A stretch of 64,000 nucleotides of DNA, from positions 62,001 to 126,000 of the forward strand of contig NZ_SMAF01000009.1 of the NCBI RefSeq assembly GCF_004343305.1. The letters run 5' to 3'. This DNA is from Pseudofulvimonas gallinarii. GTDB lineage: Bacteria > Pseudomonadota > Gammaproteobacteria > Xanthomonadales > UBA2363. Shown piece after piece: positions 33,878 through 61,876 of this stretch. The notes below the pieces were generated by a model that saw nothing but the letters and a program-made list of their open reading frames with translations, ran no database searches and had not been told where the DNA came from. Within the stretch, counting starts at the first letter, position 1, and each line of letters begins with the position of its first letter. The position numbers and the translations under genes are program-made.

Positions 33878-33949
33878 GGCGACCCCATTTTCCCGCCTCC
33901 GGCCGCCCCGCCGCCGGTGGCGCGCCCTGCATCGAGGTCAATCGAGACG

Positions 33950-34696
33950 ATGAAGATCCTGGTCGGTTACAAGCGCGTGGTGGACTACAACGTCCGCATC
34001 CAGGTCAAGCCCGACAGTTCCGGCGTGGTGACCGAAGGCGTCAAGCTGTCGCCCAACCCCTTCGACGAGATCGCGCTGGAAGAGGCCCTGCGCCTGCGCG
34101 AGAAGGGCATCGCCAGCGAAGTCGTGGTCGCGACCATCGCGCCGGCCGATGCCCAGGCACATCTGCGCAACGGCCTGGCCATGGGCGCCAACCGCGCCAT
34201 CCACGTCGTCACCGACGAGGTCGTGCAGCCGCTGACAGCGGCGCGCATTCTGCTCAAGCTGATCGAGAAGGAACAGCCGGGGCTGGTGCTGCTGGGCAAG
34301 CAGGCGATCGACGACGATGCCAACCAGACCGGCCAGATGCTGGCGGCGCTGTGGGATCGCCCGCAGGCGACGTTCGCCTCGGAAATCGTCGTCGACGGCC
34401 AGGTCGCCCGCGTCACCCGCGAAGTGGACGCCGGCCTTGAAACCATCGAGATCGACCTGCCGGCGGTGGTCACCACCGACCTGCGCCTCAACGAGCCGCG
34501 CTTCATCAAGCTGCCGGACATCATGAAGGCCAAGAGCAAGCCGCTGGAGACGATCGCGCTCGCCGACCTCGGGGTCGAAGCCGCCGCCGGCCTGACCGCC
34601 AGCCACTATGCCGCGCCGGCCAAGCGCAGCAAGGGCGTGATGGTCAAGGACGTCGCCGAGCTGGTCGCCGCCCTGAAGGCCAAGGGCCTGGTCTGA
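33950..34696 (+). CDS. etfB: Electron transfer flavoprotein beta subunit
   Basis: 248 aa, typical length. It starts MKILVGYKRVVDYNVRIQVK, matches EtfB throughout, and has the AMP-binding region and the recognition loop (about residues 185-200: LRLNEPRFIKLPDIMKAKSK). EtfB/EtfA take electrons from acyl-CoA dehydrogenases and pass them to ETF-ubiquinone oxidoreductase. The alpha subunit gene follows 64 bp downstream. Confidence 0.96.
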   Translation: MKILVGYKRVVDYNVRIQVKPDSSGVVTEGVKLSPNPFDEIALEEALRLREKGIASEVVVATIAPADAQAHLRNGLAMGANRAIHVVTDEVVQPLTAARILLKLIEKEQPGLVLLGKQAIDDDANQTGQMLAALWDRPQATFASEIVVDGQVARVTREVDAGLETIEIDLPAVVTTDLRLNEPRFIKLPDIMKAKSKPLETIALADLGVEAAAGLTASHYAAPAKRSKGVMVKDVAELVAALKAKGLV

Positions 34697-34760
34697 TTCC
34701 GCATCCGCCTTGCACGGACGGAGCCCGCTCCGTCCCGCACCTCAGTCGAGGACATATCCA

Positions 34761-35699
34761 ATGAGCAAGATCCTGATCGTCGCCGAGCACCTCAACGGCC
34801 AGCTCAACGCCAGCACCGCCAAGTGCGTGACGGCGGCCGGCAAGCTGTCGCCGGAAGCCATCGATATCCTGGTGCTGGCCGCCGATGCCGCCGGCATCGC
34901 CGCGCAGGCCGCCCAGATCGCCGGGGTCAGCCGCGTGCTGACGGTGGAACGCGCCGAGAACGCGCAGTCGCTGTCCGCCGTGCTGGCGCCCCAGGTGGCC
35001 AAGGCTGCCGCCGGTTACAGCCACGTGTTCGGCCCGTCGACCACCTTCGGCAAGGACCTGATGCCACGCGTCGCCGCGCTGCTCGGCGTGCCGCAGGTTT
35101 CCGACCTGATGGAAGTGGTCGATGCGCAGACCTTCAAGCGCCCTGTGTACGCCGGCAACGCCATCGTCACGGTGAGCGCACCGGCGGGCGCGATCGTCGC
35201 CACCGTCCGAACCGCATCGTTCCCGGCGGCCGCCGAAGGCGGCGGCGCCAGCGTCGAGGCGCTGTCGCTGGACGTCGCGCTGCCGACGCACACGCGCTTC
35301 GTCGAGCTGAAGGCCGGCAAGAGCGACCGCCCGGACCTGCAGACGGCGTCCCGTGTGGTGTCCGGTGGCCGCGCCCTGGGTTCGGCCGACAGCTTCCGCA
35401 TCATCTACTCGCTGGCCGACAAGCTCGGTGCCGGTGTCGGCGCCTCGCGCGCCGCGGTCGATGCCGGCTACGTGCCGAACGACATGCAGGTCGGCCAGAC
35501 CGGCAAGATCATCGCGCCGGAGCTGTACATCGCGATCGGCATCTCCGGCGCCATCCAGCATCTCACCGGCATCAAGGATGCCGGCACCATCGTGGCGATC
35601 AACAAGGACGCCGAGGCGCCGATCTTCGAGATCGCCGACTTCGGCCTGGTCGGCGACCTGTTCACGCTGGTCCCGGAGCTGGAAGCCGCGCTCGGCTGA
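34761..35699 (+). CDS. etfA: Electron transfer flavoprotein alpha subunit
   Basis: 312 aa. The C-terminal FAD-binding domain has the standard motifs: [48 protein letters not shown] and NKD[16 protein letters not shown]. Partner of EtfB in the mitochondrial-type ETF used in fatty-acid oxidation. Spacing (64 bp) implies one operon. Confidence 0.97.
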
Positions 35700-37699: not shown

Positions 37700-39154
37700 A
37701 TGCATCCATCGTCCGAACCGACGCCATCCACCGGGAACCGCCCGCGTCCGCTGGTCGTGGATCTCGATGGCACGCTGGTGCTCGGCGACACGCTGCACGA
37801 ATCACTGCTCGGCCTGCTGCACGCGGCACCCGTCAATGCCCTGCTTCTGCCAGCATGGCTGCTGCGCGGCAAGGCCGGCTTCAAACGTGCGCTCGCGGCG
37901 CGTCATAGGGTTGATCCGGGCACGCTGGCCTACAACCAGCCGCTGCTGGAATGGATCCGATCCCAGCGCGAGGAACGACAGGTCGTGCTCTGCACTGCGG
38001 CCGATGCCGCCATCGCGCAGGCGGTCGCCGCTCATCTGGGGCTTTTCGATGCGGTGATCGCCAGCAACGGCCAGGACAACCTGTCGGCCGGACGCAAGGC
38101 CGACGCGCTGGTGGCACGCTACGGCGAGCGCGGCTTCGACTACGTCGGCAACGACGCCGCCGACCTGCCGGTCTGGCAACGCGCGCACTCGGCCATCCTC
38201 TGCAATGCCACGACGAGCGTGAGTCGCGCTGCGCTGGCGCACGGCAACGTCGTGCACGAGATTGCGCCGCGCACCGGCACCTCCATCGCCTGGCTGCGGG
38301 CGCTGCGCCTGCACCAATGGGCGAAGAACCTGCTGCTGTTCGTGCCGCTGTTGACGGCGCACCTGGTATTCGAACCGGCCGCGCTGGCGAAGGCAACGCT
38401 TGCCTTCGTCACGTTCTGCCTGTGTGCCTCGGGCGTGTATCTGCTCAACGACCTCGCCGACCTGGCGGCCGATCGCCGCCATCCGCGCAAGCGCCTGCGC
38501 CCGTTCGCCGCCGGGCAGCTTTCTGCGCTGGCTGGATCCGGTGTCGCCCTGGCGCTGCTGGCCAGCGCGTTCGCGCTGGCGATCGCGACCTTGCCGTTGG
38601 CCTTTGTCGTCGCCCTGGCCGCCTATTTCCTGCTGACCTGTGCCTATTCGCTGCGCCTCAAGCGCGTGGAGATCCTCGACGTGGTGGTCCTCGCGGCGCT
38701 CTACACCGCGCGGATCATCGCCGGTGCGCTGGCGCTGCAAGTCGAGCTTTCGTTCTGGCTGCTGGCGTTCTCGATGTTCCTGTTCCTGTCGTTGGCGCTG
38801 CTCAAGCGACATACCGAACTGGGCGCAGTCGCCGAGCTGGGCGAGGCACATGTGAGCGGACGCGGCTACCGCGTCAGCGACCTGCCGCTGGTCGCGATGC
38901 TGGGCGTGACCGCGGGATACGCCTCGGTGCTGGTGTTCGCGCTCTACATCAACAGCCCGGCCAGTGCCGCCCTGTACGCGCGGCCGACCCTGCTGTGGCT
39001 GCTGTGCCCGCTGCTGCTGTTCTGGATCGGGCGCGTATGGCTGCTCAGCCATCGCCGCCGCATGCATGACGATCCACTCGTGTTCGCACTGACCGATCCG
39101 GCCAGCCTGCTGGTCCTGGTCGCTGCGCTGGTGACCGTCGGCGCGGCGATATGA
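37700..39154 (+). CDS. HAD phosphatase-UbiA prenyltransferase fusion (polyprenyl-phosphate ribosyltransferase type)
   Basis: 484 aa in two parts. Residues 15-200 are a HAD phosphatase: VVDLDGTLV (nucleophile D21, D23), LCTAAD (motif II) and YVGNDAADLPV (motif IV). Residues 210-484 are a UbiA membrane domain with eight or nine helices, the NDLADLAADRRHPRKRLRP Asp motif and a second, Asp-poor loop DVVVLAALYTARIIAGA, as in decaprenyl-phosphate phosphoribosyltransferase (Rv3806c type). The predicted role is to move phosphoribose from PRPP to polyprenyl phosphate (UbiA) and to remove the 5-phosphate (HAD). It overlaps the next gene by ATGA, and the epimerase pair follows; this context supports the arabinose-donor role over quinone biosynthesis. 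Confidence 0.88.
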   Translation: MHPSSEPTPSTGNRPRPLVVDLDGTLVLGDTLHESLLGLLHAAPVNALLLPAWLLRGKAGFKRALAARHRVDPGTLAYNQPLLEWIRSQREERQVVLCTAADAAIAQAVAAHLGLFDAVIASNGQDNLSAGRKADALVARYGERGFDYVGNDAADLPVWQRAHSAILCNATTSVSRAALAHGNVVHEIAPRTGTSIAWLRALRLHQWAKNLLLFVPLLTAHLVFEPAALAKATLAFVTFCLCASGVYLLNDLADLAADRRHPRKRLRPFAAGQLSALAGSGVALALLASAFALAIATLPLAFVVALAAYFLLTCAYSLRLKRVEILDVVVLAALYTARIIAGALALQVELSFWLLAFSMFLFLSLALLKRHTELGAVAELGEAHVSGRGYRVSDLPLVAMLGVTAGYASVLVFALYINSPASAALYARPTLLWLLCPLLLFWIGRVWLLSHRRRMHDDPLVFALTDPASLLVLVAALVTVGAAI

Positions 39155-40467
39155 ACGACACCGGCATCGGCTGGGGTCGCCATCCGCGCCTCCCGCCAGC
39201 GCGGCAGGTCGTCTTGCGCGACCGTAACGCCGCTCTGCCGCAGACATCGACGACGCTGCTGCCGCATGGCCTGGGCCGCAGTTATGGCGACAGCTGCCAG
39301 AACGGCGACGGTACCCTGCTACTCACGCGCGGCCTCGACCGCTTCATCCACTTCGATCGTGAAGCCGGCGTCCTGGCCTGCGAGGCCGGCGTCAGCCTCG
39401 ACGAGATCCTGAGACTGGTCGTTCCGCACGGCTGGTTCCTGCCGGCGGTGCCCGGCACGCGCTTCGTTACCGTCGGCGGCGCGATTGCCAATGATGTCCA
39501 CGGCAAGAACCATCATCGCGCTGGCAGTTTCGGACGGCATGTGCGCCGCTTCGAACTGCTGCGCAGCGATGGCCGTCGCCTCGTCTGTTCGCCGGAGGAA
39601 AACACCGGGCTGTTCGAAGCCACCATCGGCGGCCTCGGCCTCACCGGACTGATGACCTGGGCGGAAATCAGGCTGGCCCCCATTCCCGGTCCCTGGATGC
39701 AGGTCGAGCATGTCCGTTTCGCGGGCCTCGACGAGTTCTTCGCCCTCAGCGAGGCATCGGCGAACAGCCACGAACACAGCGTGGCGTGGATCGACTGCCT
39801 GGCGCGCGGCAACAAGGCCGGGCGCGGCATATTCAGCCGGGCGAATTTCGTCGCCGATTCACGACCTGCGCGGCAGTTGGCGCCGCCACGGCTGGCGGTG
39901 CCCTTCACGCCGCCCGTGCCGATGATCGGGGGCCTCGGCGCGCGCTTCTTCAACGGCGCCTGGTACCGCCGGCCGTTGCGGCGCCCGCGGCGACAGCCCT
40001 ATGCCCCGTTCCTGTTCCCGCTCGACGGCATCGCCGAGTGGAACCGCCTGTACGGACCACGCGGCTTCCTGCAGCACCAGTGCGTCATCCCGCCGGAATC
40101 GGAACGCGACGCCGTGCAGGAACTGTTGCACGCGGTGGCGTCGGCCGGCAGCGGTTCCTTCCTCGCCGTGCTGAAGCGATTTGGTGACCTGCCGTCGCCC
40201 GGCCTGCTCTCGTTCGCACGTCCGGGAACGACCCTGGCACTGGATTTCCCCAATCGCGGCGACGCGACCTTGTCCCTGCTGGATCGCCTGGACGGCGTCG
40301 TCGCCGCCGCCGGCGGTGCCGTGTATCCGGCAAAGGATGCGCGCATGTCGGGCCGCCATTTCCGGCAATTCTTCCCGCGCTGGCCGGCGTTCGACCAGCT
40401 ACGCGACCCGGCCTTCTCCTCCAGCTTCTGGCGCCGTGTGATGACCGGTTCCGGCAGGATGCAATGA
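39151..40467 (+). CDS. dprE1: FAD-linked polyprenylphosphoryl-ribose 2'-oxidase, DprE1 family
   Basis: 438 aa, close to M. tuberculosis DprE1 (461). FAD-binding motifs are the signature GLGRSYGDS and GGAIANDVHGKNHHRAGSFG (His of the flavin site kept), followed by GLTGLMTWAEIRL. Further on, YGPRGFLQHQCVIP and the catalytic lysine in AKDAR are conserved. The position equal to DprE1 Cys387 (in NICVDF) is Ala here (TLALDF), so the covalent benzothiazinone target is missing. The predicted reaction oxidises the 2'-OH of polyprenylphosphoryl-ribose to the 2'-keto form in the periplasm or at the membrane. ATGA overlaps link it to both neighbours. Confidence 0.92.
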   Translation: MNDTGIGWGRHPRLPPARQVVLRDRNAALPQTSTTLLPHGLGRSYGDSCQNGDGTLLLTRGLDRFIHFDREAGVLACEAGVSLDEILRLVVPHGWFLPAVPGTRFVTVGGAIANDVHGKNHHRAGSFGRHVRRFELLRSDGRRLVCSPEENTGLFEATIGGLGLTGLMTWAEIRLAPIPGPWMQVEHVRFAGLDEFFALSEASANSHEHSVAWIDCLARGNKAGRGIFSRANFVADSRPARQLAPPRLAVPFTPPVPMIGGLGARFFNGAWYRRPLRRPRRQPYAPFLFPLDGIAEWNRLYGPRGFLQHQCVIPPESERDAVQELLHAVASAGSGSFLAVLKRFGDLPSPGLLSFARPGTTLALDFPNRGDATLSLLDRLDGVVAAAGGAVYPAKDARMSGRHFRQFFPRWPAFDQLRDPAFSSSFWRRVMTGSGRMQ

Positions 40468-41204
40468 TGAAAAAGATCCTCGTCATCGGTGCCACGTCGG
40501 CGATCGCGGAATCCTGCGCACGACTGTGGGCCCAGCGCGGCGATGCCCTCTATCTGCTCGGCCGCGACAAGGCACGACTGCGGGCCATTGCCGACGACCT
40601 GCGCGCGCGCGGCGCCGCCGAAGTCGCGATGGCGACGCTCGATGTCCGGGACAGGCCTTCGCATGTTTCCGCGATTGAACAGGCGCGCACGGCCATGGCC
40701 GGCGTGGACATCGCACTGCTGGCGCACGGAACGCTTCCGGATCCGGGCGAGTGCGACCGCGACCTTGCTACCGCGATGGATGCATTCGACACCAACGGCA
40801 CCGGCACGATCGCATTGATGCATCGGCTCGCCGCGCTGCTCGAGCTACAGGGCAGCGGCCATCTCGCCGTGATCGGTTCCGTGGCCGGTGATCGGGGACG
40901 CGCCAGCAATGCGATCTATGGCGCCGCCAAGGCCGCGGTGGAAACCTATGCCAGCGCGTTGCGACAGCGGCTGGGCCGACGCGGCATCCAGGTGCTCACC
41001 ATCAAGCCGGGGTTTGTCGATACACCGATGACTGCCCGCTTCCGCAAGAGTGCGCTCTGGGCATCGCCATCGCGTGTTGCCGCCAGCATCGTGCGCGCGA
41101 TCGACCGCGATCGCGCCGTCATCTACGTGCCGTGGTTCTGGCGCCCGGTCATGGCGATCATCCGCGCGCTTCCCGAGTTCGTCTTCAGGCGCATGAAATT
41201 CTGA
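40464..41204 (+). CDS. dprE2: Short-chain reductase, DprE2 family
   Basis: 246 aa; starts in an ATGATGA overlap with dprE1. NAD-binding ILVIGATSAIAESCAR (a G-A-T-S-x-I-A signature of DprE2 rather than the usual T-G-x-x-x-G-x-G), LDVRD, and the YGAAK catalytic pair are present. The C terminus has an amphipathic/hydrophobic end. It would reduce the 2'-keto intermediate to polyprenylphosphoryl-arabinose together with DprE1. Gene order and coupling support this over a general SDR. Confidence 0.9.
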   Translation: MMKKILVIGATSAIAESCARLWAQRGDALYLLGRDKARLRAIADDLRARGAAEVAMATLDVRDRPSHVSAIEQARTAMAGVDIALLAHGTLPDPGECDRDLATAMDAFDTNGTGTIALMHRLAALLELQGSGHLAVIGSVAGDRGRASNAIYGAAKAAVETYASALRQRLGRRGIQVLTIKPGFVDTPMTARFRKSALWASPSRVAASIVRAIDRDRAVIYVPWFWRPVMAIIRALPEFVFRRMKF

Positions 41205-43390: not shown

Positions 43391-44137
43391 TCAGAACCGG
43401 CCGCTGCGCAGCACACGCGCCTTCAGGCGGGCCAGTCCCTGCTGCCAGGCATAGGGCAGACTGGCGACGACGCGACGACGCAGCCGGAACAGCGCCGGGG
43501 ACGGGTCGGGCACGGCATGGCCATCGCCGATGCGCGTGGCGACGATCGAGCCCGGCAGTCCGGCAATGCGGCTGTCATGCACGTACAGCAGCGTGTTGAA
43601 CCGGTACCAGAATGGCACCGCGGCATCCGGCAACAACTGCGGCCGAATCGCGTCGAAGGCACGGTAGCCGTGGCGCGCGAATTTTTCCCGCCAGTAGTCC
43701 AGCGGCTGCTCGTTGATGTGGTACTCGCCGCCCTGTCCCGGCGGCGCGGCGGAAAACAGGACCACGCCGCTGGCATGGTTGACGAGGTTGGCGACGAACT
43801 GGTCGGCACACGCGGCGTCGACATGCTCGGCGACCTCCAGCGATTGCACGAGGTCGAATCGACGCCCGAGGTCCAGGGGGCGTGACAGATCGGCCGCATG
43901 GAAGCAGTGTTCGGGGATGAGCAGGTGCTCACGCCGCACGTAGTCGCCATCCGCCCCGTGGATGTCTTCAATGCCGCTTTCACGCCAGGCGGCCAGCCAG
44001 GTGCCCGTTGCACAACCGACGTCGAGCACACTGCGCAGCGCCAGCGGCTCGCGCAGCATCGCAGCCACCTTCATCGCCGCGTGCCGCGACGCGCTGGCCG
44101 TGTAGTCCATGAAATGCTGGTCGTAGACATGACCCAC
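43391..44137 (-). CDS. Class I SAM-dependent methyltransferase
   Basis: 248 aa. SAM-binding motif I VLDVGCATGTWLAAW and an acidic residue after beta-2 (IHGADGDYV) are typical of small-molecule or sugar methyltransferases; the later LVQSLEVAEHVD and LFSAAPPGQGG motifs occur in glycan-cluster methyltransferases. Last gene of the minus-strand glycan cluster, 172 bp from the EamA gene; acceptor unknown. Confidence 0.85.
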   Translation of the reverse strand: MGHVYDQHFMDYTASASRHAAMKVAAMLREPLALRSVLDVGCATGTWLAAWRESGIEDIHGADGDYVRREHLLIPEHCFHAADLSRPLDLGRRFDLVQSLEVAEHVDAACADQFVANLVNHASGVVLFSAAPPGQGGEYHINEQPLDYWREKFARHGYRAFDAIRPQLLPDAAVPFWYRFNTLLYVHDSRIAGLPGSIVATRIGDGHAVPDPSPALFRLRRRVVASLPYAWQQGLARLKARVLRSGRF

Positions 44138-44309: not shown

Positions 44310-44675
44310 TCAACGCGTGCATATGAACAATCCGACCGCGATCAGGCCGATACCCAGCCACTTGGTCGGGGAGACATGCTCGCCCAGCACCAGCGCCGCC
44401 AGCAGGATCGCCGCGACATACTGCAACGACACCACGATCTGCGCCGCATGCAACTGAAAATGTTTCAGCGCCCAGGCATAGGCCAGGATGCCGAACCCGA
44501 AGCAGCCGATGCCGGCGACTGTTTGCCAGGGAAGCAAGCCGAACAGCAGGGGCCGGCCAGCCGGCGTATCGGCGCCCAGTTTCAGCAGCAGGTTGCCGAC
44601 GGCATTGCCGACGATGACCAGACCCAGTGCCGCGAAGGCGAGCCAGCGCACACCCAGTCCCTGTTCAATGCCCAT
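44310..44675 (-). CDS. Small EamA/SMR-like transporter (possible lipid-linked sugar flippase subunit)
   Basis: 121 aa with GGAGAA upstream of ATG 44675 (MGIEQGLGVRWLAFA). Four membrane helices (about 10-30, 45-65, 75-95, 100-118) and the motif LQYVAAILLAALVLGEHVSPTKWLGIGLI fit the EamA/SMR half-size family, including ArnE/ArnF-type flippase subunits. Directly after the asparagine-synthase-like gene (32-bp gap), so a role in moving an undecaprenyl-linked sugar is possible but unproven. Confidence 0.75.
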   Translation of the reverse strand: MGIEQGLGVRWLAFAALGLVIVGNAVGNLLLKLGADTPAGRPLLFGLLPWQTVAGIGCFGFGILAYAWALKHFQLHAAQIVVSLQYVAAILLAALVLGEHVSPTKWLGIGLIAVGLFICTR

Positions 44676-44707: not shown

Positions 44708-46582
44708 CTACTGCACCGCCTGCGCAGGACGCAGGCCTTCCAGGGCGCGACTGCCGGACAGCATGATCTCGCTCCACAGATACAGGCGATGATCGGCGCT
44801 GCCGGCGCGGTGCTCCGCGAGACGACGCGTCCACACATCGGCACGTGGCGCGGGCACCTCCAGTGATTCGCCGATGCGTCCTTCCGCCAGCCAGCGTCCC
44901 ACCGGCAGCGCAAAGCCCTGCTTGCGCCGGTGCACGATGTCGTGTGGCAACAAGGTCGCGGCGACCTCCTTGAGCAGCCATTTCGTCTGACCGCCCCGCA
45001 ACTTCAAGGACGACGGCAGGCGGCGCGCGAAGTCAACCAGTTCGATATCCAGGAACGGCGCGCGCACCTCCAGTGAATGCAGCATGCTGGCACGATCGAC
45101 CTTGACCAGGATGTCGTCCTGCAGATAGAGGTCGACGAAGAAGCTGCTGGCGCGATCGACATCGTCGTCGGAAGGACAGTTCTCCCACGCCTCGATGGCT
45201 TCGGAATACACCTCGTCCAACGGCACCGGATCGGCGAACAGCTCGGCCAGATCCATCTCCGATGCCGGTGCCAGCCACACCGGCAGGCGCAACGCGGGCT
45301 TGCGGTCGATGCCGCGCAGCAGCCGCTTCAGGCGGAAGTCGAAACTCATGTAGCGATGCGACACGGGCATACGCGATGCCAGCGTACAGATCGCGCGATG
45401 CACCGGCCGCGGTACCATCCGCGAATACCAGCGCGCGTAGCGCAGCGCCTTGAAGGGGTCGTAGCCGGCGAACAGCTCGTCGGCGCCATCGCCGCCCAGA
45501 GCGACGGTCACCTGTTCACGCGCGAAGCCACACAGCAGCCAGGTCGGCAGGATGGAGGAGTCGGCGATCGGCTCATCAATGCCGGCCAGCAATGCCGGCA
45601 GCCTGGCGCGCGCCTCTTCAACACTCAGACGACGCAGCTGATGGTCGGCGCCAATGTGCGCCGCGACGGCACGCGCGGACGCCGACTCGTCGAAACTGGC
45701 CTCGTCGAAGCCGATCGAGTACGTCCGCAGCCGTTCGCGGCCCGCCTGCCGCAACGCCACCGCGGCGATGGTGGAGGAGTCGACACCACCACTGAGAAAC
45801 AGCCCGACCGGCACATCGGCGACCAGGCGGCGGGCGACGGACCGGTCGATCAGGCCGGCCAGTTCTTCCACCAGCGCCGCTGTCGGACGCGATGCCAGCG
45901 CGGCATCCGGTTCAACCCGATAGCGCCAGTAGCAATGTTCGGATAGCCGGCCACTTGCCAGGTCCAGACGCAAGGAACAGCCGCCCGGCAACTTGCGCAC
46001 GCCTTCGACCAGGGTCAAAGGTGCCGGTACGAAGCCATAGGCGAAATACTTGCGCAGCGCGACGCGGTCCAGCGACGACGGCACGTCCGGATGCGCGCGC
46101 AGCGCCGACAGTTCGGATGCAAAGGCGAACAGCCCGGGCGCGTGACGGTAGTAGAAGGGCTTCTTGCCGAAGCGGTCGCGCGAACAGAACAGCGTCCGCG
46201 CACGGCGGTCGTGGATCACGAACGCCCACATGCCGTTCAACCGTTCGGGCAGCGCGTCGCCCCAGGCGCGATAGCCATGCAACACAACTTCGGTATCGGA
46301 GTGGTCACTGCGGAAGACGGCGCCGCCGCGTTCAAGCTCCTCGCGCAATGCCTGGAAATTGTAGATCTCGCCGTTGAAGACAATGGTCAGGTCGCCATCG
46401 CTCATGGGCTGCGCACCGCCTTGGACGTCGAGTATCGACAGGCGGCGATGGCCGAGATGGACGCCTTGTGCCCCGTCGATGGCGACGGCCTGCGCATCGG
46501 GACCCCGATGCGCCAGGCGTGAAGTCATCCGTTCGATGAGGGCGCGATCACCCCGTCCGACGAAACCGGCGATGCCGCACAT
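44708..46582 (-). CDS. asnB: Glutamine-hydrolysing asparagine synthase-like amidotransferase
   Basis: 624 aa. The N-terminal class II glutaminase has the nucleophile Cys2 (MCGIAGF), HRGPD and RLSILD motifs; the synthetase domain has the ATP-pyrophosphatase loop FLSGGVDSS and KVDRASM(L)H. Length and motifs match AsnB-type enzymes. In glycan clusters AsnB-like proteins (for example WbpS) amidate sugars or lipid-linked intermediates, so free asparagine synthesis is not certain. It starts 6 bp after the GT2 stop. Confidence 0.9.
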   Translation of the reverse strand: MCGIAGFVGRGDRALIERMTSRLAHRGPDAQAVAIDGAQGVHLGHRRLSILDVQGGAQPMSDGDLTIVFNGEIYNFQALREELERGGAVFRSDHSDTEVVLHGYRAWGDALPERLNGMWAFVIHDRRARTLFCSRDRFGKKPFYYRHAPGLFAFASELSALRAHPDVPSSLDRVALRKYFAYGFVPAPLTLVEGVRKLPGGCSLRLDLASGRLSEHCYWRYRVEPDAALASRPTAALVEELAGLIDRSVARRLVADVPVGLFLSGGVDSSTIAAVALRQAGRERLRTYSIGFDEASFDESASARAVAAHIGADHQLRRLSVEEARARLPALLAGIDEPIADSSILPTWLLCGFAREQVTVALGGDGADELFAGYDPFKALRYARWYSRMVPRPVHRAICTLASRMPVSHRYMSFDFRLKRLLRGIDRKPALRLPVWLAPASEMDLAELFADPVPLDEVYSEAIEAWENCPSDDDVDRASSFFVDLYLQDDILVKVDRASMLHSLEVRAPFLDIELVDFARRLPSSLKLRGGQTKWLLKEVAATLLPHDIVHRRKQGFALPVGRWLAEGRIGESLEVPAPRADVWTRRLAEHRAGSADHRLYLWSEIMLSGSRALEGLRPAQAVQ

Positions 46583-46588: not shown

Positions 46589-47656
46589 TCAGGCGCCCTG
46601 GGTGCCGACGATGCGGGCAATGCGATAGACGGGTTTCGACTGCGATTCGTGATACGTGCGGTTGATCATCTCCGCCAACAGTCCCATCAGGATGCTGACC
46701 ACGCCGATCATGAAGGCGAACACGGCCAGCAGTGGCAGCGGCGTCTGGATCAGCGACGTTCCGGCAAACACCTTGAGGCCGAGGGCCCACGACCCCAATC
46801 CGAACGACAGAAGGATCGACAGCAGGCCGAAGCCGCCGAACACGTAGATCGGCTTGCTCGAATACTTGAACAGGAATTTCACCACCAGCAGGTCGAGAAC
46901 GACCTTGATGACCCGCTCCAGTCCGTACTTGGAAACGCCATGGATGCGCGGATGATGGGTCACCGCCATCTCGCCGACGCGCGCACCGTTCCAGGCCGCA
47001 TAGATCGGCACGAAGCGGTGCATCTCGCCATACAGCTTGACGCCGTCGAGCACTTCTTTGCGGTACGCCTTCAAGGAGCAACCATAGTCGTGGAGATGAA
47101 CGCCAGACACCCGCGAGATTATCCAGTTTGCGACACGGCTTGGCATATTTCTTCGCAGCGGATGATCCTGTCGCTCCTTCCTCCATCCAGACACCACGTC
47201 AAACCCTTCATCCAATTTTTCCAGAAGACGGCCGATGTCTTCCGGATCATTCTGCATGTCCCCATCCATGGGGACCACAATGTCGCCTCGTGAATGATCG
47301 AGCCCCGCCATGAGCGCGGCCGTTTGTCCGAAATTGCGACTGAAATGGAGCACCCTGACCTGATCGTCCGAGGCCGCAAGGGTATCCAACAATTGGGCCG
47401 AACCGTCACTGCTGCCGTCGTTTACAAAAACAATCTCCCAAGTGCGCCCCAGTGCATCCAACGCATTGCGCGTACGCATGTAGAGATCAAGGATGTTGCC
47501 TTCTTCATTGAAGATGGGCACGGTGACGGTTACCTGCACGCCGCAGCCTGAGGAATTGTCTGTCTGGTTGTCCATCGCAGCCACTTGGAAACGTTGTGAT
47601 TGCCCCCGGGTCGTCCTGCGCTGTGTTTCGACACCGCCCCCCGGGGTGATGCTCAT
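46589..47656 (-). CDS. GT2 polyprenyl-phosphate glycosyltransferase (GtrB/ArnC type)
   Basis: 355 aa beginning in the ATGA overlap with the upstream GtrII gene; an internal ATG at 47575 (MDNQTDNSSG) is an alternative start nearer to the conserved part. GT2 motifs VTVPIFNEEGNI, VNDGSSDGS and the D-x-D (PMDGDMQNDPED) are present, with two C-terminal membrane helices (about 285-345). It should load undecaprenyl phosphate with a sugar in the inner leaflet, the GtrB step of the GtrA/GtrB/GtrII system. Confidence 0.9.
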   Translation of the reverse strand: MSITPGGGVETQRRTTRGQSQRFQVAAMDNQTDNSSGCGVQVTVTVPIFNEEGNILDLYMRTRNALDALGRTWEIVFVNDGSSDGSAQLLDTLAASDDQVRVLHFSRNFGQTAALMAGLDHSRGDIVVPMDGDMQNDPEDIGRLLEKLDEGFDVVSGWRKERQDHPLRRNMPSRVANWIISRVSGVHLHDYGCSLKAYRKEVLDGVKLYGEMHRFVPIYAAWNGARVGEMAVTHHPRIHGVSKYGLERVIKVVLDLLVVKFLFKYSSKPIYVFGGFGLLSILLSFGLGSWALGLKVFAGTSLIQTPLPLLAVFAFMIGVVSILMGLLAEMINRTYHESQSKPVYRIARIVGTQGA

Positions 47657-49284
47657 GGCACGTTGAATGGGTAGCCCGGCATATCACCGAGCTTGATCAG
47701 TGTATTGCCTTCGTGAACGACTACGCTGCCGGGCGCAGGCCACCTTGGCATCGCGGAAAAAATGCTCAGGTTTGCGCGCCGACGATCAGCACTGGCTTCG
47801 ACGAGATTGGTGTAACCCAAAAGGCGCATGTAAGAAACCATGCGTAAAAGATTGCCGCCGTCCCACTCGAAAAACGAATAGCCCCAGGTTGATGTCATCG
47901 GCCGCACCTGTAGAGGCTGGAAGGGCAGTGCACCATGGATGTCGACGGCATAGATCTTGTGCGAATCGAAACTCTCTTGCACCTCTGCGATGCGGCGGTA
48001 AAGGTCCGCCGCCAACTGCCGATCATGATGACGCACGGCCATGTCCACTGACTGCACGAGATTGTTCGCTTGTACCAGTCCCAATAGCGACATCAGTAGG
48101 GCTACGACGGAAATCTTCTCCAGCCAGTACTGGCCACTCGTAAGCCCCGCCATCGTGAAGAACCATACCGCGGAAGGAACCGCGACCATCGTTCGAACTG
48201 GCATTCCCCCGGAAAGGATATCCAGGGAGAAGGGCACCAGCACTAGCACCCCAATCATTGCCAGAATCACGGCGCGTTTTGCGAAAGAAGGTACGACAGA
48301 GATCGTGAGTGCCCCAATCGCAACGATCCCAACAAGGATCAGGAGCGGGAACCCAAGTATGTTCATTCCGAACACGTGGGCGCTGCCGCCGTAAACAGCC
48401 GCCATGTTCCGCAGCGCAGCCCTCACCATACCCAGCGGATCCAAAAAGAAATGCCGGATATTCACGATATTCCCAACGTATCCGCCATCGCGAAGGCCAG
48501 TGGCGTACAGGAAAATGGAATTCATGATCCAGTAAGTGGCTACTGCCAGGCAAAGGATCAGCATCAGCATGACCAGATCGCGAAGAGGCCTGGATGCCTC
48601 CGGCTGCGCCAGCGCTCTGGCAACCAGCAAGCCTAGTCCTAGTGCCGCGCAGGTAATAACAAAGCTCTGATAGATTGAAGTAGCGAGGGCAGCCAGGACG
48701 ACCGCCCGCATTAGATGCGTCAACGCACCTGCGCTGCGGCTAGTTGTTGCGTCGACATACGACACGAAGGCTCGAGCGAAAAGACAGCAGAACAGCAAAG
48801 CAAGCCCTGCGGCGGCGATGTTCGCAGAGAACGCCGCCAAGTGCATCCAGGTCGGAAAGGCCGCGAATACCGGAAACGACAGAACATGAATGACAGCAGG
48901 TCGGACCACCCCATGCGCGGACAACAGCACCAGGTACGCAATAGAAGAAAACACCCCGAAAATGAACAGTGCTGCGAAAGGTATCGCAGGGAGCGAGACT
49001 ACCCAGCGCTCAAACAGATAAGCCCCCCATCGACCCTGCATGAGCCATACCCCAGGATCACTGCGCACCGAAGCAAGCTCATCATCTATCTGAAGAGAAT
49101 AATTCGCTAGTGCGTGAAAATAGCATAAGGTAAAGATTACAAGGAGCGTCAGCAGGCGTGGCCCGATCCAGATGCGAATCCACTCAGGCCCCTCGCTACA
49201 CATTCTCATTGCGCACCCCATGGGCGACAGCGAGGCGCCCGCAAACGCCAACCTTTGCGAACACGGAAGGCCTCCAGAATTCAA
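47653..49284 (-). CDS. GtrII-family glucosyltransferase-like multi-pass membrane protein
   Basis: 543 aa if TTG 49284 (overlapping the gtrA stop) is used; ATG 49221 or 49203 are alternatives and none has a strong ribosome site. At least 11 membrane helices. The N-terminal YSLQIDDELAS motif (acidic DD) and WLMQGRWGAYL that follows match GtrII serotype-conversion glycosyltransferases. These add a sugar from undecaprenyl phosphate to O-antigen at the periplasmic side. Codon use and base composition are noticeably more A/T-rich than most of the window. Confidence 0.82.
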   Translation of the reverse strand: MNSGGLPCSQRLAFAGASLSPMGCAMRMCSEGPEWIRIWIGPRLLTLLVIFTLCYFHALANYSLQIDDELASVRSDPGVWLMQGRWGAYLFERWVVSLPAIPFAALFIFGVFSSIAYLVLLSAHGVVRPAVIHVLSFPVFAAFPTWMHLAAFSANIAAAGLALLFCCLFARAFVSYVDATTSRSAGALTHLMRAVVLAALATSIYQSFVITCAALGLGLLVARALAQPEASRPLRDLVMLMLILCLAVATYWIMNSIFLYATGLRDGGYVGNIVNIRHFFLDPLGMVRAALRNMAAVYGGSAHVFGMNILGFPLLILVGIVAIGALTISVVPSFAKRAVILAMIGVLVLVPFSLDILSGGMPVRTMVAVPSAVWFFTMAGLTSGQYWLEKISVVALLMSLLGLVQANNLVQSVDMAVRHHDRQLAADLYRRIAEVQESFDSHKIYAVDIHGALPFQPLQVRPMTSTWGYSFFEWDGGNLLRMVSYMRLLGYTNLVEASADRRRANLSIFSAMPRWPAPGSVVVHEGNTLIKLGDMPGYPFNVP

Positions 49285-49697
49285 TCTTGCGCCACATGTG
49301 GCGCCCTCGTGCCCAGCACCAGCTTGGCAATAAGGTAGTTGAAGGGCAAAAACGCAGCGATAACCACCAGAGCACTGACGCGTGGATCGATACCCACGCC
49401 TCGGATCAGTCCATGATTAAGGGCCATGCCAGCCAAAAGTTGTGGCAAGTAAACCAGAGGAAATCGCATGATTCTCTTCCATGTCGGCGGAACCCTGAAT
49501 ACCCAGCGCAGGTTCAGGACCAGACTCACACCAAGCCCACAGAGAAAGGCGAGCACATAGGCCGCGTGGTAACCGATGGCGCGAAGCAGGGTCAGATAAA
49601 CCGCGTAGGACATTCCGGTATTGACGAGCCCGGTCAGGACAAACCTGATGGCACGCCAAATTTCGGCGCACAGTTTCGCATTGAAATCCGGAGTCAC
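49281..49697 (-). CDS. gtrA: GtrA-family flippase-like membrane protein
   Basis: 138 aa starting GTG in a GTGA overlap with the wxcM-like gene. Four membrane helices and the family motifs RFVLTGLVNTGMSYAVYLTLL and LNLRWVFR identify GtrA, which is thought to flip undecaprenyl-phosphate-glucose. Its 3' end contains the perfect palindrome GCGCCACATGTGGCGC (49289-49304). Confidence 0.92.
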   Translation of the reverse strand: MTPDFNAKLCAEIWRAIRFVLTGLVNTGMSYAVYLTLLRAIGYHAAYVLAFLCGLGVSLVLNLRWVFRVPPTWKRIMRFPLVYLPQLLAGMALNHGLIRGVGIDPRVSALVVIAAFLPFNYLIAKLVLGTRAPHVAQD

Positions 49698-50638
49698 GCC
49701 TGCTCCATGGTCTCTCGGTAGTAGTCATAGTCCCTGATATAGTCTTCCGGATCATAGTGTTCGGAAGCAAAGACAAGCAGCAGGGCATCGGGTGAATATT
49801 TATATTGGATACCCCAGGTCATGGGTGGCAGCAAGAGACCGATATCGGGCCGATCCAATCGAATCTCGCGACGTTGCCGGGCGTCATCGACCACGACGGC
49901 GCAGCTTCCACGAACACAGATCAGGAACTGACTGCAACGCCAGTGAGCGTGCTCGCCGCGAACCTCCCTGCTTGGAACATCGTAGACCATGAACGCACGC
50001 TTCACTTCGAAGGGCACGTGCAGACCAAACTCTACCGCCGAAAGACTGCCCCGAAGGTCGCGTACATTCGGAAGGCGATACAGACTGGCCCCATTTACGC
50101 CCAAGTCGACAGTCTGGTCATTCCCCAACTCATCAAACCCTCGGACCGAATCGGCGCTCGCCGCCTGACCTGTGGCGTAACCGACAATTCGCGCCGGGTT
50201 GCCCACGACGACGGCGTTCGGCGGCACCGACTTGGTCACGACAGAACCCGCACCAACCATCGCATTGGAACCGATGACCACGCCTGGAAGTATGGTCGCA
50301 TTGGCCCCTATGGAAGCCCCTCTTCGCAATGTCGTCACCGGATAGCCAGCAAGATGCTGTCTGCTTCTAGGAAAAGGATCGTTGCAGAAGGTCGCGTTTG
50401 GACCGATGAACACGTCATCTTCAACAACCACTCCATCCCACAACTGCACGCCGCACTTGACCGTCACCCGGTTCCCAACTACTACACCGCTCTCTATGAA
50501 GACGTTATCGCAAATGTTGCAATCCGTACCGATGCGCGCACCTTCAAGCACGTGTGCAAAGGCCCAGATGCGGCTGCGTGCCCCGATATGGACAGACTCG
50601 CACAGCGCGGCGGGGTGACAGTAGTATTCCGAACTCAC
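49694..50638 (-). CDS. wxcM: Fused sugar N-acyltransferase/dTDP-4-keto-6-deoxyhexose 3,4-ketoisomerase (WxcM-like)
   Basis: 314 aa starting GTG 50638 in a GTGA overlap, with GGAGGA 6 nt upstream. Residues 1-160 are a left-handed beta-helix acyltransferase with hexapeptide repeats (GARIGTDCNICDNVFIESG, GASIGANATILPGVVIGSN). Residues 170-314 are a WxcM/FdtA cupin isomerase (VPSREVRGEHAHWRCSQFL with catalytic His residues, and YSPDALLLVFASEHYDPEDYIRDY). The fusion fits Xanthomonas WxcM. The predicted route is dTDP-4-keto-6-deoxyglucose to a 3-keto sugar (cupin), amination by the neighbouring FdtB, then N-acetylation, giving dTDP-Fuc3NAc or dTDP-Qui3NAc; the isomer cannot be told from sequence. 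Confidence 0.9.
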   Translation of the reverse strand: MSSEYYCHPAALCESVHIGARSRIWAFAHVLEGARIGTDCNICDNVFIESGVVVGNRVTVKCGVQLWDGVVVEDDVFIGPNATFCNDPFPRSRQHLAGYPVTTLRRGASIGANATILPGVVIGSNAMVGAGSVVTKSVPPNAVVVGNPARIVGYATGQAASADSVRGFDELGNDQTVDLGVNGASLYRLPNVRDLRGSLSAVEFGLHVPFEVKRAFMVYDVPSREVRGEHAHWRCSQFLICVRGSCAVVVDDARQRREIRLDRPDIGLLLPPMTWGIQYKYSPDALLLVFASEHYDPEDYIRDYDYYRETMEQA

Positions 50639-51594
50639 ATTGACTCCTCCGTACCCGGAGCTTCCCGCCCCCTGAATACCTCGTGTGAGCGGATCACCGA
50701 TAACGCCCGCCCCTTGGTGTTTTCATAAGCCCGCCACGCATAGATACCAACAATGCCAAGACCCAGGGCGTTTAGTCCTCCAAATCCGAGCAGGACGATA
50801 AGCGTTGCCGTATAGCCCGGCACATCGATAATTCCAATCAGCCTCGATACCATTGCAACGACGGTTAGGATCAGTGCACCTGCAAGGGACAGCATCCCGA
50901 GTCCAACCAGAAGGCGGATCGGCAGATCTGAAAATGCAAACAGGCTGTCCAACAGGTAGTCGAGCTTGCGCCGAAATCCCCACGCACTCTTTCCTTCCAG
51001 TCGCGGCAGTCGTTCGTATTCAACCCCCACCCTGCGGAATCCCAACCAGAAAAGTTGCGCAACGAGCGAGCTTCGCGCCTCCCTCATCGCCAGCAGCTGG
51101 TCGCGAACAGCCCGGTTGAAGGCGAATATGTCAACACCCCCCGGCGGGATCTCTGGCATCACCAGTTTTCGATATGCGCGCCAAAACATGCCCGACAGCA
51201 GGCGCGTCAGCCATGGATCGCTCCGTCCGCGTCGAACACCCACCACTACATCAACATCGCCGGCTTGCAGCCTCTGATGAAATCGCACGATAAGCTCGGG
51301 GGGCTCCTGCAGATCTGCCGCCATAACGGCAAAATGGTCACCGGAAGCCATCTCGAGACCTGCCCTGATGGCAGCAAAGGAACCGAAGTTTCTACTCAGA
51401 TCTACCAGACAGGCCTGGAATCCGTACTCTGGCAGGCGACAGGCCAATTCACGCGAGCTGTAGTCGGGACTCCCATCTACAACGAAGACTGCTTCGAACC
51501 CACCTTCGATCCGGCTGCGGATTTGGGCAATCGCATCAAGGAGCCGTGGAATCGATTGCTCATTACGATAGACAGGAATGATAAGTGAGAACAT
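50635..51594 (-). CDS. GT2 glycosyltransferase with C-terminal membrane helices (GtrB-like)
   Basis: 319 aa from ATG 51594, which shares one base with the fdtB stop (TGATG) and has GGAG 6 nt upstream; ATG 51606 is an in-frame alternative. GT2 motifs SLIIPVYRNEQSI, VVDGSPDYSS and ADLQEPPE with two membrane helices (about 230-290) place it with the DPM/GtrB group. It probably transfers a sugar to undecaprenyl phosphate; a second, different GtrB-like gene is at 46589. Confidence 0.88.
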   Translation of the reverse strand: MFSLIIPVYRNEQSIPRLLDAIAQIRSRIEGGFEAVFVVDGSPDYSSRELACRLPEYGFQACLVDLSRNFGSFAAIRAGLEMASGDHFAVMAADLQEPPELIVRFHQRLQAGDVDVVVGVRRGRSDPWLTRLLSGMFWRAYRKLVMPEIPPGGVDIFAFNRAVRDQLLAMREARSSLVAQLFWLGFRRVGVEYERLPRLEGKSAWGFRRKLDYLLDSLFAFSDLPIRLLVGLGMLSLAGALILTVVAMVSRLIGIIDVPGYTATLIVLLGFGGLNALGLGIVGIYAWRAYENTKGRALSVIRSHEVFRGREAPGTEESM

Positions 51595-52685
51595 CAAGGA
51601 CTCCACGCTCGGATGGCGTCGGCTACTTGCTCAACCTCACCGTCGTCCATCCACGGATGACAGGGAATTGTGACGACTTCCTGACATACGCGTTCGGTGA
51701 CCGGTAGCCGAACTCCATTGAAGCGACCATTCCAAACAGGCTGCCGGTGATCCGGACAAGGATAGTGAATGTCACTGGCCACTCCGTGGCTTGCCAGATG
51801 CGCCTGAAAGGCCTCACGATGATTGGAGCGCAGAACACAAAGATGATGTACATGCGCTTCGCCCTCATCATCTTGGAACACCAGCCCGGAATGGGGGACA
51901 CCTCGGTAGTAGCTGGCAATCGCCCGTCGGCGCGCATTTTGCTGATCCAGCGCGGGGAGTTTCGCCAAAAGAATCGCAGCCTGCAATTCGTCCAACCGAC
52001 TGTTCCGCCCACCCGGTTCGACCGCGTAGTATTTGCCGCGCCAGCCGTACTGGCGGAGCGAGCGGGCCCTGTCCATGAGTGTCTTGTCGGCGCCAACAAC
52101 TGCCCCACCGTCCCCGCAGGCGCCCAGGTTCTTGGTGGGATAAAAACTGAAAGCAGCCAGGTCACCCCAACTGCCTGCGCGCTTTCCATCGCGTTGCGCC
52201 CCGTGTGCCTGCGCGCAGTCCTCGATTACAGCCCAACCCCGGGAGCGCGCCACATTGAGTATCGCCGGCATATCCGCCAACAATCCATACAAATGGGTAA
52301 CGACAACTGCACGAACCGTTTCCCCGGACAGCGTCGCGAGTGAATCCGGATCCATGAGGAGGGTGCCGGGGTTTATATCGCAATAGACAGGAGTGCATCC
52401 GGCGGCAACAGCAGCTGTGGCTGCATACATGCCGGCGTTTGCAACCATTGCCACGCCATCGCCTGGACCCAGGCCCAGGGCCCGCATGGCAATCTCCAGC
52501 GCATCCGTCCCATTACCAACCCCTGTCGCGAAATCAACGCCGCAGAAGCCGGCGAAGCGCGACTCGAAGTCTGCCACCGACGGGCCGAGCACATACCATC
52601 CTGATTCGATGACCTGTCGGGCAGCGACAGCAATGATAATTGCGTCCTGGTCCGCGGCACGTTTGAGGTCATTCAAAGAAATCAC
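51594..52685 (-). CDS. fdtB: Sugar 3-aminotransferase, DegT/DnrJ/EryC1 family (FdtB/QdtB-like)
   Basis: 363 aa from GTG 52685, chosen because AGGTGGGGA precedes it and the product then starts MISLNDLKRA like other family members; an upstream ATG at 52742 gives 19 extra residues. PLP motifs are TDALEIAMRALGLGPGD, VIEDCAQAHGA, and SFYPTKNLGACGDGGA with the Schiff-base lysine. With the WxcM-like isomerase next in the operon, it should aminate C3 of a dTDP-3-keto-6-deoxyhexose. Confidence 0.9.
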   Translation of the reverse strand: MISLNDLKRAADQDAIIIAVAARQVIESGWYVLGPSVADFESRFAGFCGVDFATGVGNGTDALEIAMRALGLGPGDGVAMVANAGMYAATAAVAAGCTPVYCDINPGTLLMDPDSLATLSGETVRAVVVTHLYGLLADMPAILNVARSRGWAVIEDCAQAHGAQRDGKRAGSWGDLAAFSFYPTKNLGACGDGGAVVGADKTLMDRARSLRQYGWRGKYYAVEPGGRNSRLDELQAAILLAKLPALDQQNARRRAIASYYRGVPHSGLVFQDDEGEAHVHHLCVLRSNHREAFQAHLASHGVASDIHYPCPDHRQPVWNGRFNGVRLPVTERVCQEVVTIPCHPWMDDGEVEQVADAIRAWSP

Positions 52686-52788
52686 GATATCCCCACCTGT
52701 TTTAACTGCCCGCTGACGGGGCGGCGCAAGTATTAACAACACAACCCGGAATCATGTACGCGCTGCGCGAGCAAGGCAGTCCGCACTT

Positions 52789-53508
52789 TCACGAATCTAC
52801 TGCGGCACGAGGATAGATTGAATCAGTAACGTCAGCCGGCACCAGATCCCAGCGCAACCGCGTCCGGTCATAGTCACCCACCTTGCGGGCGATGATCGCT
52901 ATGCCCTGATGCATCTCGAAAAGGTGCATGGGTCGCGTGGCCGCGTCACGCACGAGCGAGAACATCCTGGCGGGCAAACCTTCCGACACGGTAACCACTT
53001 CAAAACCGGTAACCGGGTTGAACATGCAGTGTGCGCTGTGATGCAGGAATCGCCAGAAATCCCATGGCAACTCGTGTGTAATCCAAGCCGGATGAGTCGC
53101 CACAAACACATGGCCTCCCGGCTTCAGGATTTCGTTGATCTCCATGGCGGCTTTCCAAGGAAACATCAGGTGCTCAAAAACCGATATGGAGTAGACGAAA
53201 TCAAAACGCTTCTCGGGGAATGCCTTGCCCAACTGATGAGCATCCGAAACAACATCGACATACTCCCCTGGATGAATGTCCACGCCAGTGTAGTCGGTGA
53301 CGCCAGGAAAACGTTCGCGGCCATTGTGGCCTGAAACATTGCGCGAGCCGATTTCCAGTACCGCCGGATTGGTCGAATCAAGAACCATCTGCCGGAATTG
53401 GGCAAATGTCCGATGGTACGGATCATCTCCCGCAGCTTTGCGCCGCAATCCCTTCAGCAGCCAGTTGGCCAACCGTAAACGAACCTGATCCATTTTTTCC
53501 ACGCTCAC
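52789..53508 (-). CDS. Class I SAM-dependent methyltransferase
   Basis: 239 aa. AVLEIGSRNVSG is motif I, followed by GVDIHPGEYVDVVSD and the YSISVFEHLMFPW motif of DUF4942/Methyltransf_11-type enzymes. It is the first gene of the minus-strand island. Substrate unknown; likely a sugar or lipid-linked glycan, from context. Confidence 0.8.
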   Translation of the reverse strand: MSVEKMDQVRLRLANWLLKGLRRKAAGDDPYHRTFAQFRQMVLDSTNPAVLEIGSRNVSGHNGRERFPGVTDYTGVDIHPGEYVDVVSDAHQLGKAFPEKRFDFVYSISVFEHLMFPWKAAMEINEILKPGGHVFVATHPAWITHELPWDFWRFLHHSAHCMFNPVTGFEVVTVSEGLPARMFSLVRDAATRPMHLFEMHQGIAIIARKVGDYDRTRLRWDLVPADVTDSIYPRAAVDS

Positions 53509-53639: not shown

Positions 53640-54806
53640 TCAGCCCCGCAACGCCGCGTCGAGCTCGGCGCGCAGGTCTTCCAGGTCCTCGACGCCGACC
53701 GACAGGCGCACCAGGTTGTCGGCAATGCCCAGTTCGGCGCGGCGCTCGGGCGGCACGCTGGCGTGGGTCATGATCGCCGGATGGTTGATGAGGCTTTCGA
53801 CACCGCCCAGCGACTCGGCCAGCGCGAACAGCCGGCAGCGTTCCATCATCCGCACGGAAGCCTCGCGACCACCCTTGACGTAGACGCTGATGATGCCGCC
53901 GAAGCCGGCCATCTGCCGCTTCGCCAGCTCATGCTGCGGATGTGAGGGCAGCCCCGGATAGATCACCTTGTCGACACCCGGATGGCCGTCGAGCCATTGC
54001 GCCAGCGCCATCGCGTTCTCGCAGTGCGCCTTCATGCGCAGGTGCAGGGTCTTGAGGCCGCGAAGCGCCAGGAAGCTGTCGAACGGTCCCTGCACGCCGC
54101 CAACGGCGTTCTGCAGGAAGGTGAGCTGTTCTTCCAGTTCGCTGTCGTCGCCGACGACGAGCATGCCGCCGACAATGTCGGAATGGCCGTTGAGGTACTT
54201 GGTTGCCGAATGCATGACCAGGTGCGCGCCCAGTTCCAGGGGCCGCTGCAGCACCGGCGTGGCGAAGGTGTTGTCGACGGCCAGCCGGATGCCGCGCTTG
54301 CGCGCGAATTCAGCCAAGGCGGCGATGTCGAGCACCTTGAGCATCGGATTGGTCGGTGTCTCGACCCAGATCAGGCGCGTCTCCGGACGCACGGCCGCTT
54401 CCAGCGCGGCGCGGTCACCGAGGTCCACGAAGCTGAATTCCAGCCCGGCGGAGCGCTTGCGCACGCGTTCGAACAGTCGATACGTACCGCCGTAGACGTC
54501 ATCCATGCAGATGACGTGGCTGCCACTGTCGAGCACATCCAGCACCGTCGACGTGGCCGCGAGTCCGGAGGCGAAGGCGTAGCCGCGGCGGCCGCCTTCG
54601 AGGTCGGCGACGCAGCGCTCCCAGGCGAAACGCGTCGGGTTGTGGCTGCGCGAGTATTCGAAGCCCTGGTGCACGCCCGGGCTGGACTGCACGTAGGTGG
54701 ATGTCGCGTAGATCGGCGTCATCACTGCGCCGGTAGTCGGGTCGGGGGACTGCCCGGCGTGGATGGCGCGGGTACCGAGGCCCAGGTTTGCGTCGTGCTG
54801 GCTCAT
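53640..54806 (-). CDS. metB: Cystathionine gamma-synthase/lyase (PLP, Cys/Met metabolism)
   Basis: 388 aa. The family motifs are all present: YSRSHNPTRFAWE, the GGxxGYAFASGLAA phosphate loop, WVETPTNPMLKV, DNTFATPVLQRPLELGAH and the Schiff-base lysine in HSATKYLNGHSD. Follows the cystathionine beta-synthase gene by 30 bp on the same strand, so the pair probably forms the reverse transsulfuration route (homocysteine to cysteine). That context favours gamma-lyase activity; sequence alone does not exclude gamma-synthase. Confidence 0.9.
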   Translation of the reverse strand: MSQHDANLGLGTRAIHAGQSPDPTTGAVMTPIYATSTYVQSSPGVHQGFEYSRSHNPTRFAWERCVADLEGGRRGYAFASGLAATSTVLDVLDSGSHVICMDDVYGGTYRLFERVRKRSAGLEFSFVDLGDRAALEAAVRPETRLIWVETPTNPMLKVLDIAALAEFARKRGIRLAVDNTFATPVLQRPLELGAHLVMHSATKYLNGHSDIVGGMLVVGDDSELEEQLTFLQNAVGGVQGPFDSFLALRGLKTLHLRMKAHCENAMALAQWLDGHPGVDKVIYPGLPSHPQHELAKRQMAGFGGIISVYVKGGREASVRMMERCRLFALAESLGGVESLINHPAIMTHASVPPERRAELGIADNLVRLSVGVEDLEDLRAELDAALRG

Positions 54807-61854: not shown

Positions 61855-61876
61855 TTGCGTGAGCCCTCCCCCCTAA

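Follow-up and report, generated by a model that had tools for sequence, protein, structure and literature searches.

Which sugar does a compact run of glycan genes on the minus strand of the 3.45-Mb Pseudofulvimonas gallinarii genome add to the cell surface, and how did part of this run come to be poorer in GC than the DNA on either side? The run lies within a 64,000-nucleotide stretch (contig NZ_SMAF01000009.1, positions 62,001 to 126,000; hereafter the window, whose numbering is used throughout). Its low-GC part, 46589-53508, had been taken in a sequence-only reading for a horizontally gained operon for O-antigen glucosylation. We find that the run belongs to the highly variable metB-etfA O-antigen (lipopolysaccharide, LPS) locus, here in a member of the Xanthomonas/Lysobacter order. 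Homologous exchange is likely to have brought in the low-GC part as an allele of a wxcK-L-M-N-type gene set that would attach branches of 3-acetamido-3,6-dideoxygalactose (Fuc3NAc) outside the cytoplasm. Our confidence is high for the locus and the cassette, and moderate for both the sugar and the manner of acquisition.

A wxcK-L-M-N-type cassette between metB and etfA

One conserved flank is a metB-type gene for a pyridoxal phosphate-dependent Cys/Met enzyme (53640..54806, minus strand; PF01053, E 1.2e-150), which is 86-87% identical in the two congeners present in our genome collection (G001 and G002). The product's nearest relatives with a name, as judged from the best 80 of 591 matches, come from Lysobacter, Aquimonas, Luteimonas and others of the Xanthomonas/Lysobacter order. 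The far flank consists of etfB and etfA (33815..35699, plus strand; PF01012 and PF00766), 71-94% identical in the relatives where they were found; the minus-strand frames 34644-35714 and 33938-34606 were rejected as marker genes, as they lie opposite etfA and etfB. The approximately 18 kb between the flanks carry variable glycan genes, partly of atypical GC, and the gene content differs in both congeners. This is the arrangement described for Xanthomonas, where the accounts of the region ascribe strain-variable LPS genes of atypical GC between metB and etfA to repeated horizontal transfer (PMC524487, PMC2238763). No inverted repeats were detected at the ends of the locus, the best local alignment being at shuffle level (59 of 300 shuffles scored as high); such repeats are presented in PMC524487 as an accompanying rather than a defining feature of the metB-etfA LPS locus in Xanthomonadaceae.

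The run comprises ten genes, from 53508 down to 43391, in the order MT1, FdtB, GT2a, WxcM-type, GtrA, GtrII, GT2b, asnB-like, EamA and MT2, and the low-GC segment corresponds to the first seven (53508-46589). Gene order and coordinates had been read correctly from the sequence; the methyltransferase that heads the segment went unmentioned. This gene, MT1 (52789..53508; PF13489; third-codon-position GC, GC3, of 0.62), has a 73% identical counterpart at the same place in G002. It is followed by an fdtB/wxcK-like sugar 3-aminotransferase gene (51594..52742; PF01041, E 5e-94; solved relatives include QdtB, 3frk), for which a GTG at 52685 is the likely start, the G001 match opening there, at residue 20. 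GT2a (50635..51594; PF00535) is a wxcL-like, GtrB-type polyprenyl-phosphate sugar synthase that matches the NCBIfam PgfS and ArnC models below their cut-offs. The wxcM gene (49694..50638; PF05523 and PF00132) encodes a hexapeptide acetyltransferase fused to an FdtA-type 3,4-ketoisomerase, and the gtrA/wxcN-like gene (49281..49697; PF04138, E 9e-20), one of two in the genome, a small membrane protein, a proposed flippase. The last slot of the cassette, the place of wxcO, is occupied by a GtrII-family membrane glycosyltransferase (47653..49284; PF14264, E 8e-30) with a doubtful TTG start. GT2b (46589..47656; PF00535), an ArnC-like polyprenyl-phosphate glycosyltransferase with a likely start at 47575, matches the ArnC model NF007986 at E 4e-65, below the cut-off. 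Thus, FdtB, GT2, WxcM and GtrA-type genes stand in the wxcK-O order, all three components of a Gtr system (PF04138, PF00535 and PF14264) share one operon, and the combination of genes for a deoxythymidine diphosphate (dTDP)-linked 3-amino sugar with a Gtr-type set, recognized previously, is borne out by the gene families.

The donor is most likely Fuc3NAc rather than glucose, because the gene order matches that of wxcK-L-M-N-O, which is tied to N-acetylfucosamine O-antigen branches. In the table of a transposon-sequencing study of Xanthomonas hortorum, rmlA and rmlB are followed by wxcK (transaminase), wxcL (glycosyltransferase), wxcM (bifunctional acetyltransferase/isomerase), wxcN and wxcO, and this region is predicted to be responsible for the synthesis and transfer of Fuc3NAc branches (PMC12573098). 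Insertions in wxcK and wxcN of Xanthomonas campestris B100 are reported to abolish the N-acetylfucosamine branches (PMC4878081), which speaks against the glucosylation first proposed for the low-GC genes. So does the operon itself, in which GT2a and gtrA are found together with FdtB and WxcM. The best solved match of the latter is 4mzu, aligned over both domains (residues 8-310 of 314, E 1e-106); it is listed as a 'WxcM-like protein', which we take to be FdtD of Shewanella denitrificans, a Fuc3NAc enzyme. Arg196 and Gly276, common to the two proteins, presumably bear on the stereochemistry of the product.

On this basis, a pathway can be proposed. RmlA and RmlB, encoded elsewhere in the genome (rmlA, rmlB and rmlD lie together on contig C4, and the genome has a single rmlB above the cut-off), would supply dTDP-4-keto-6-deoxyglucose, which the C-terminal domain of WxcM would isomerize, FdtB aminate and the N-terminal domain of WxcM acetylate to dTDP-Fuc3NAc. 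GT2a would then load Fuc3NAc onto undecaprenyl phosphate, GtrA would flip the lipid-linked sugar, and the GtrII-family protein would move it to the O-antigen in the periplasm.

Composition and borders of the low-GC segment

The segment is indeed lower in GC than both flanks, as had been noticed at first sight: the GC content is 0.55-0.60 per kb over 46.5-53.5 kb versus 0.66-0.67 in the adjacent DNA. The metB-etfA locus of Xanthomonas is known for low-GC, horizontally exchanged clusters, which accounts for such a segment here. In the best two-border fit to the third codon positions of eleven genes, GC3 falls from 0.86 to 0.62 and rises again to 0.81 (log-likelihood gain 96.6), with the borders at 53499 (range 53681-53439) and 47080 (range 47146-47014); twelve other open reading frames (ORFs) of the window have GC3 values of 0.73-0.90. 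The likely borders of the exchange are thus fixed to within approximately 240 bases near 53.5 kb and 130 bases in GT2b. The extent originally given fits at its upper end, approximately 53.5 kb, but the lower border, at approximately 47.08 kb, falls within GT2b and not at the end of the feature. The two halves of GT2b differ in codons ending in G or C (102/164 versus 139/163, P 2.6e-6, within the window), a GC3 step of 0.22, compared with -0.04 to 0.12 in the 12 relatives measured.

The corresponding stretch of congener G001 has a GC content of 0.71-0.73, and its cassette genes have GC3 values of 0.89-0.93 (four genes picked by the gene caller, which missed GT2a). In G002, MT1 is GC-poor relative to metB of the same genome (GC3 0.77 versus 0.96) and, therefore, low GC alone gives no date of arrival.

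Probable exchange at an occupied locus

Of 398 genomes of the order, 137 have relatives of FdtB at E 1e-60 or better. From the 21 best matches after the own gene, two of which are G001 and genome G257, 19 larger stretches were fetched around the others. In 17 of the 19, the genes fdtB, GT2a and wxcM are consecutive and on the same strand, and in 16 of the 19 a gtrA match follows; G001 and G257 have the whole series as well. The 137 are not all cassettes, since the next eight loci in rank (L138-L145; FdtB 43-47% identical by tblastn) have no GT2a or wxcM match within approximately 1.5 kb. Where etfA lies within the fetched stretch (8 of the 21 loci), fdtB adjoins it in seven, and the G257 cassette is on the etfB side.

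In G001, fdtB-GT2a-wxcM-gtrA stand directly after metB (56, 64, 69-70 and 44% identical, respectively), followed by a different, 639-residue membrane protein; G002 has, of the segment's genes, MT1 alone at that place. In the phylogenies, GT2a (20 rows) and WxcM (22 rows) pair firmly with G001, at 99/98 and 100/99, respectively. A sample of 364 genomes of the class contains WxcM matches at E 1e-90 in five, the own genome among them; the next best is 65% identical, below the value for G001. In this genus the locus was, therefore, probably occupied by the core before the low-GC version arrived by exchange: the presence of the same core in G001 at host-like GC and the firm pairing of two of the three genes tested favour allele replacement over gain of a new operon. 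Accordingly, the compositional sign of foreign DNA in the earlier proposal holds, but 'gain' is probably the wrong word for a replacement in a standing metB-etfA LPS locus with the same core in G001. A match of both GC and phylogeny to the rest of the genome had been named as the outcome that would speak against transfer; the GC does not match, whereas two of the three genes match the genus.

The alternative is vertical descent, in which the core has been in place from the origin of the genus and has drifted to lower GC here without any transfer. Its place and order in G001 and the firm pairing of two core genes agree with such a history as well, and several further observations weigh against the exchange of a Fuc3NAc allele. 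FdtB (22 rows) pairs with G001 weakly, at 70/86, and the identities of the core genes to G001 (56-69%) are near those of the neighbouring locus genes of normal GC (63-70%), so that old vertical descent keeps some weight. The trees cover FdtB, GT2a and WxcM, with 20-22 rows from loci chosen by FdtB similarity, and the family search covered two congeners. The identities of the GT2b halves give no support to a mosaic ancestry of this gene: its N-terminal half is less alike than its C-terminal half in all six comparisons between the window and relatives, a pattern shared by 13 of the 15 comparisons among the relatives themselves, so that the border inside GT2b is indicated by the GC3 step and not by identity. 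As regards the sugar, the authors of PMC4878081 mention, in discussing their wxcK and wxcN mutants, that polar effects are possible. We nevertheless regard vertical descent as unlikely, given the sharp fall of GC3 that reverts within a single gene, the high GC3 of the G001 cassette, the step within GT2b exceeding the largest among 12 relatives, and the lack of GtrII in either congener.

The last slot and the fate of the sugar

A protein with five or more hydrophobic segments follows gtrA in 15 of the 19 loci searched and was not found in four. With the window GtrII added, the set of 16 proteins divides into six groups without a BLASTP link over 150 residues, and the window protein groups solely with the GtrII of G257 (28% identical). 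It has no BLASTP link to the group of 708-764 residues in the fetched loci, a comparison made without the named wxcO sequences. GtrII is found in two of 398 genomes of the order and in four of 398 of the phylum (own included in both), the other three of the latter being 32-37% identical. The mildly unusual point of an otherwise ordinary, known kind of locus is the GtrII-family protein in its last slot. With a constant donor-making core and mutually unlinked last-step proteins, such loci offer a simple system for asking what sets the position of an O-antigen branch and how a cell would evade phages that are believed to use such branches (PMC12573098).

GtrII-family proteins also raise the question of whether another sugar is moved, be it glucose, the sugar linked by GT2b, or a pentofuranose from the UbiA/DprE1/DprE2-like genes discussed below. 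Phage SfII GtrII carries the annotation of a glucosyltransferase, and the locus holds two GT2 enzymes besides the UbiA/DprE-like set. In the window, however, GtrII comes directly after the amino-sugar genes and GtrA, and in G257 a GtrII 27-31% identical to it follows the same four genes with no GT2b match in the 20 kb fetched; we consider a different sugar a possibility to be kept in mind, but doubtful.

Gtr sets are classic phage cargo, and a phage- or plasmid-borne gtr seroconversion unit inserted at this place was evaluated and rejected as highly improbable. GtrII has no close phage relative (three records, all SfII, 23% identical over 65% of the length), was not confirmed in any viral contig, and is absent from 72,556 plasmid records; there is no tRNA gene in the window, and the genes scanned between the flanks gave no match to an integrase family.

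Finally, the sugar could be destined for a protein or an exopolysaccharide instead of the LPS O-antigen. No O-antigen ligase or polymerase family was recognized among the scanned genes of the stretch, although the genome was not searched for them, and undecaprenyl-linked pentofuranose has also been proposed as a donor for pilus glycosylation (PMC11127046). Nevertheless, the metB-etfA site and the gene order match the Xanthomonas O-antigen branch genes as these are described in PMC4878081 and PMC2238763, which makes a destination other than the O-antigen improbable.

A second gene group and a possible set of three donors

Six nucleotides after GT2b begins an asnB-like amidotransferase gene of host-like GC (44708..46582, minus strand; PF00733), followed on the same strand by a small EamA-family membrane protein (44310..44675; PF00892, E 1e-10), presumably of the size of an ArnE/F half-flippase, and by the second methyltransferase, MT2 (43391..44137; PF13489, E 7e-10), at the end of the run. 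GT2b and asnB are adjacent in six genomes of the order with GT2b 69-73% identical, three of which also carry MT2; no metB or etfA match was found in the stretches fetched around these pairs. At six distant GT2b loci (39-45%), there was no asnB within the short stretches covered. A lasso-peptide interpretation of asnB and an S9-like ORF was dropped, as both models matched far below their cut-offs.

On the plus strand inside the locus, 37700..41204, lie genes for a UbiA/HAD fusion and for DprE1- and DprE2-like proteins, common to both congeners at this locus and recognized by family models (UbiA, E 1.5e-191, above the cut-off; DprE1, 2.2e-107, and DprE2, 1.1e-51, both below). As in the window, such genes are near GT2b-asnB in one of the six genomes. 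They are probably a pentofuranose donor set; elsewhere, genes of this kind provide arabinofuranose donors, and complex sets are mentioned for Xanthomonas in PMC11127046. Tentatively, the locus might encode three separate lipid-linked donors. Fuc3NAc would depend on GT2a and GtrA, a second sugar, amidated or of another kind, on GT2b, asnB and EamA, and a pentofuranose on the UbiA, DprE1- and DprE2-like proteins. A four-gene core fixed across the order would be combined with freely exchanged last-step membrane transferases. Were this the case, the surface type would change by the swap of a single gene.

Gene overlaps and other features of the window

Five successive start/stop overlaps had been singled out, and all are present as ORF coordinates and text. 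For TGATG (fdtB/GT2a) and the two GTGA junctions (GT2a/wxcM and wxcM/gtrA), no evidence contradicts the starts: matches open soon after them, at residue 7 of the 323-residue frame for the GT2 domain, at residue 18 for the GtrA domain, and at residues 8 (against 4mzu) and 1 (against genome G569) for WxcM. The other two depend on doubtful starts. For TTGA (gtrA/gtrII), the alignments of GtrII relatives begin at residues 43-45 (three genomes) or 20 (one genome), with in-frame ATG codons at 49221, 49209 and 49203. For ATGA (gtrII/GT2b), the alignments of the six nearest relatives of GT2b begin at residues 29-42; at four relative loci with called ORFs, GT2b has 324, 325 and 327 residues in three, in agreement with the ATG at codon 28 (47575), and 385 in one. 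Two other 4-nucleotide overlaps connect the plus-strand ORFs 37700-39154, 39151-40467 and 40464-41204, and in G001, gtrA overlaps its last gene by 4 nucleotides. As the overlaps are partly doubtful and also occur elsewhere in the window, they indicate an ordinary, tightly packed operon.

Promoter and terminator scans were near shuffle level (2 versus 3.4 and 11 versus 9.4, respectively), and the pairs listed by the repeat finder were all short and imperfect. A genome-wide search for ABC2-type membrane proteins gave eight matches, six above the cut-off, none in the stretch of the window. Two plus-strand ORFs inside the LPS locus, 35727-37634 and 41369-43342, encode alpha/beta hydrolases resembling dienelactone hydrolases and acetyl-xylan esterases. 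Farther away, 61836-63623 (minus strand) combines a group II intron RNA match with a reverse transcriptase/maturase ORF and has lower GC than the preceding flank, and positions 1-6500, with GC of approximately 0.59-0.66 per 1-kb window versus 0.66-0.73 thereafter, are possibly another exchanged region.

Comparison with known systems

The window set shares with Shigella phage SfII the GtrII family, as well as a GtrA and a GtrB-type GT2 in the operon. It differs from the phage set in its position within a chromosomal LPS locus next to amino-sugar genes, in its donor, probably Fuc3NAc, and in the sequence of GtrII itself, as given above. The resemblance of WxcM to 4mzu extends over both domains, the activity in the window being predicted from sequence.

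The closest counterpart is the wxcK-O 'region 3' of Xanthomonas, which, as far as it is described in PMC2238763, PMC4878081 and PMC12573098, has the same order of an aminotransferase, a GT2, a bifunctional acetyltransferase/isomerase, and a small and then a large membrane protein, the same flanking genes, low GC and a variable last gene. In X. campestris, the last gene is reported to be wxcO in B100 and a different gene of 53.5% GC in two other strains (PMC2238763). The window differs in that its last gene encodes a GtrII-family protein of at most 543 residues, compared with proteins of 730-750 residues in X. campestris, in that a GT2b-asnB-EamA-MT2 group follows, and in that the set stands at the metB end, as in G001, whereas fdtB adjoins etfA in seven other fetched loci. 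The known hypervariable LPS locus is thereby extended to another genus of the order.

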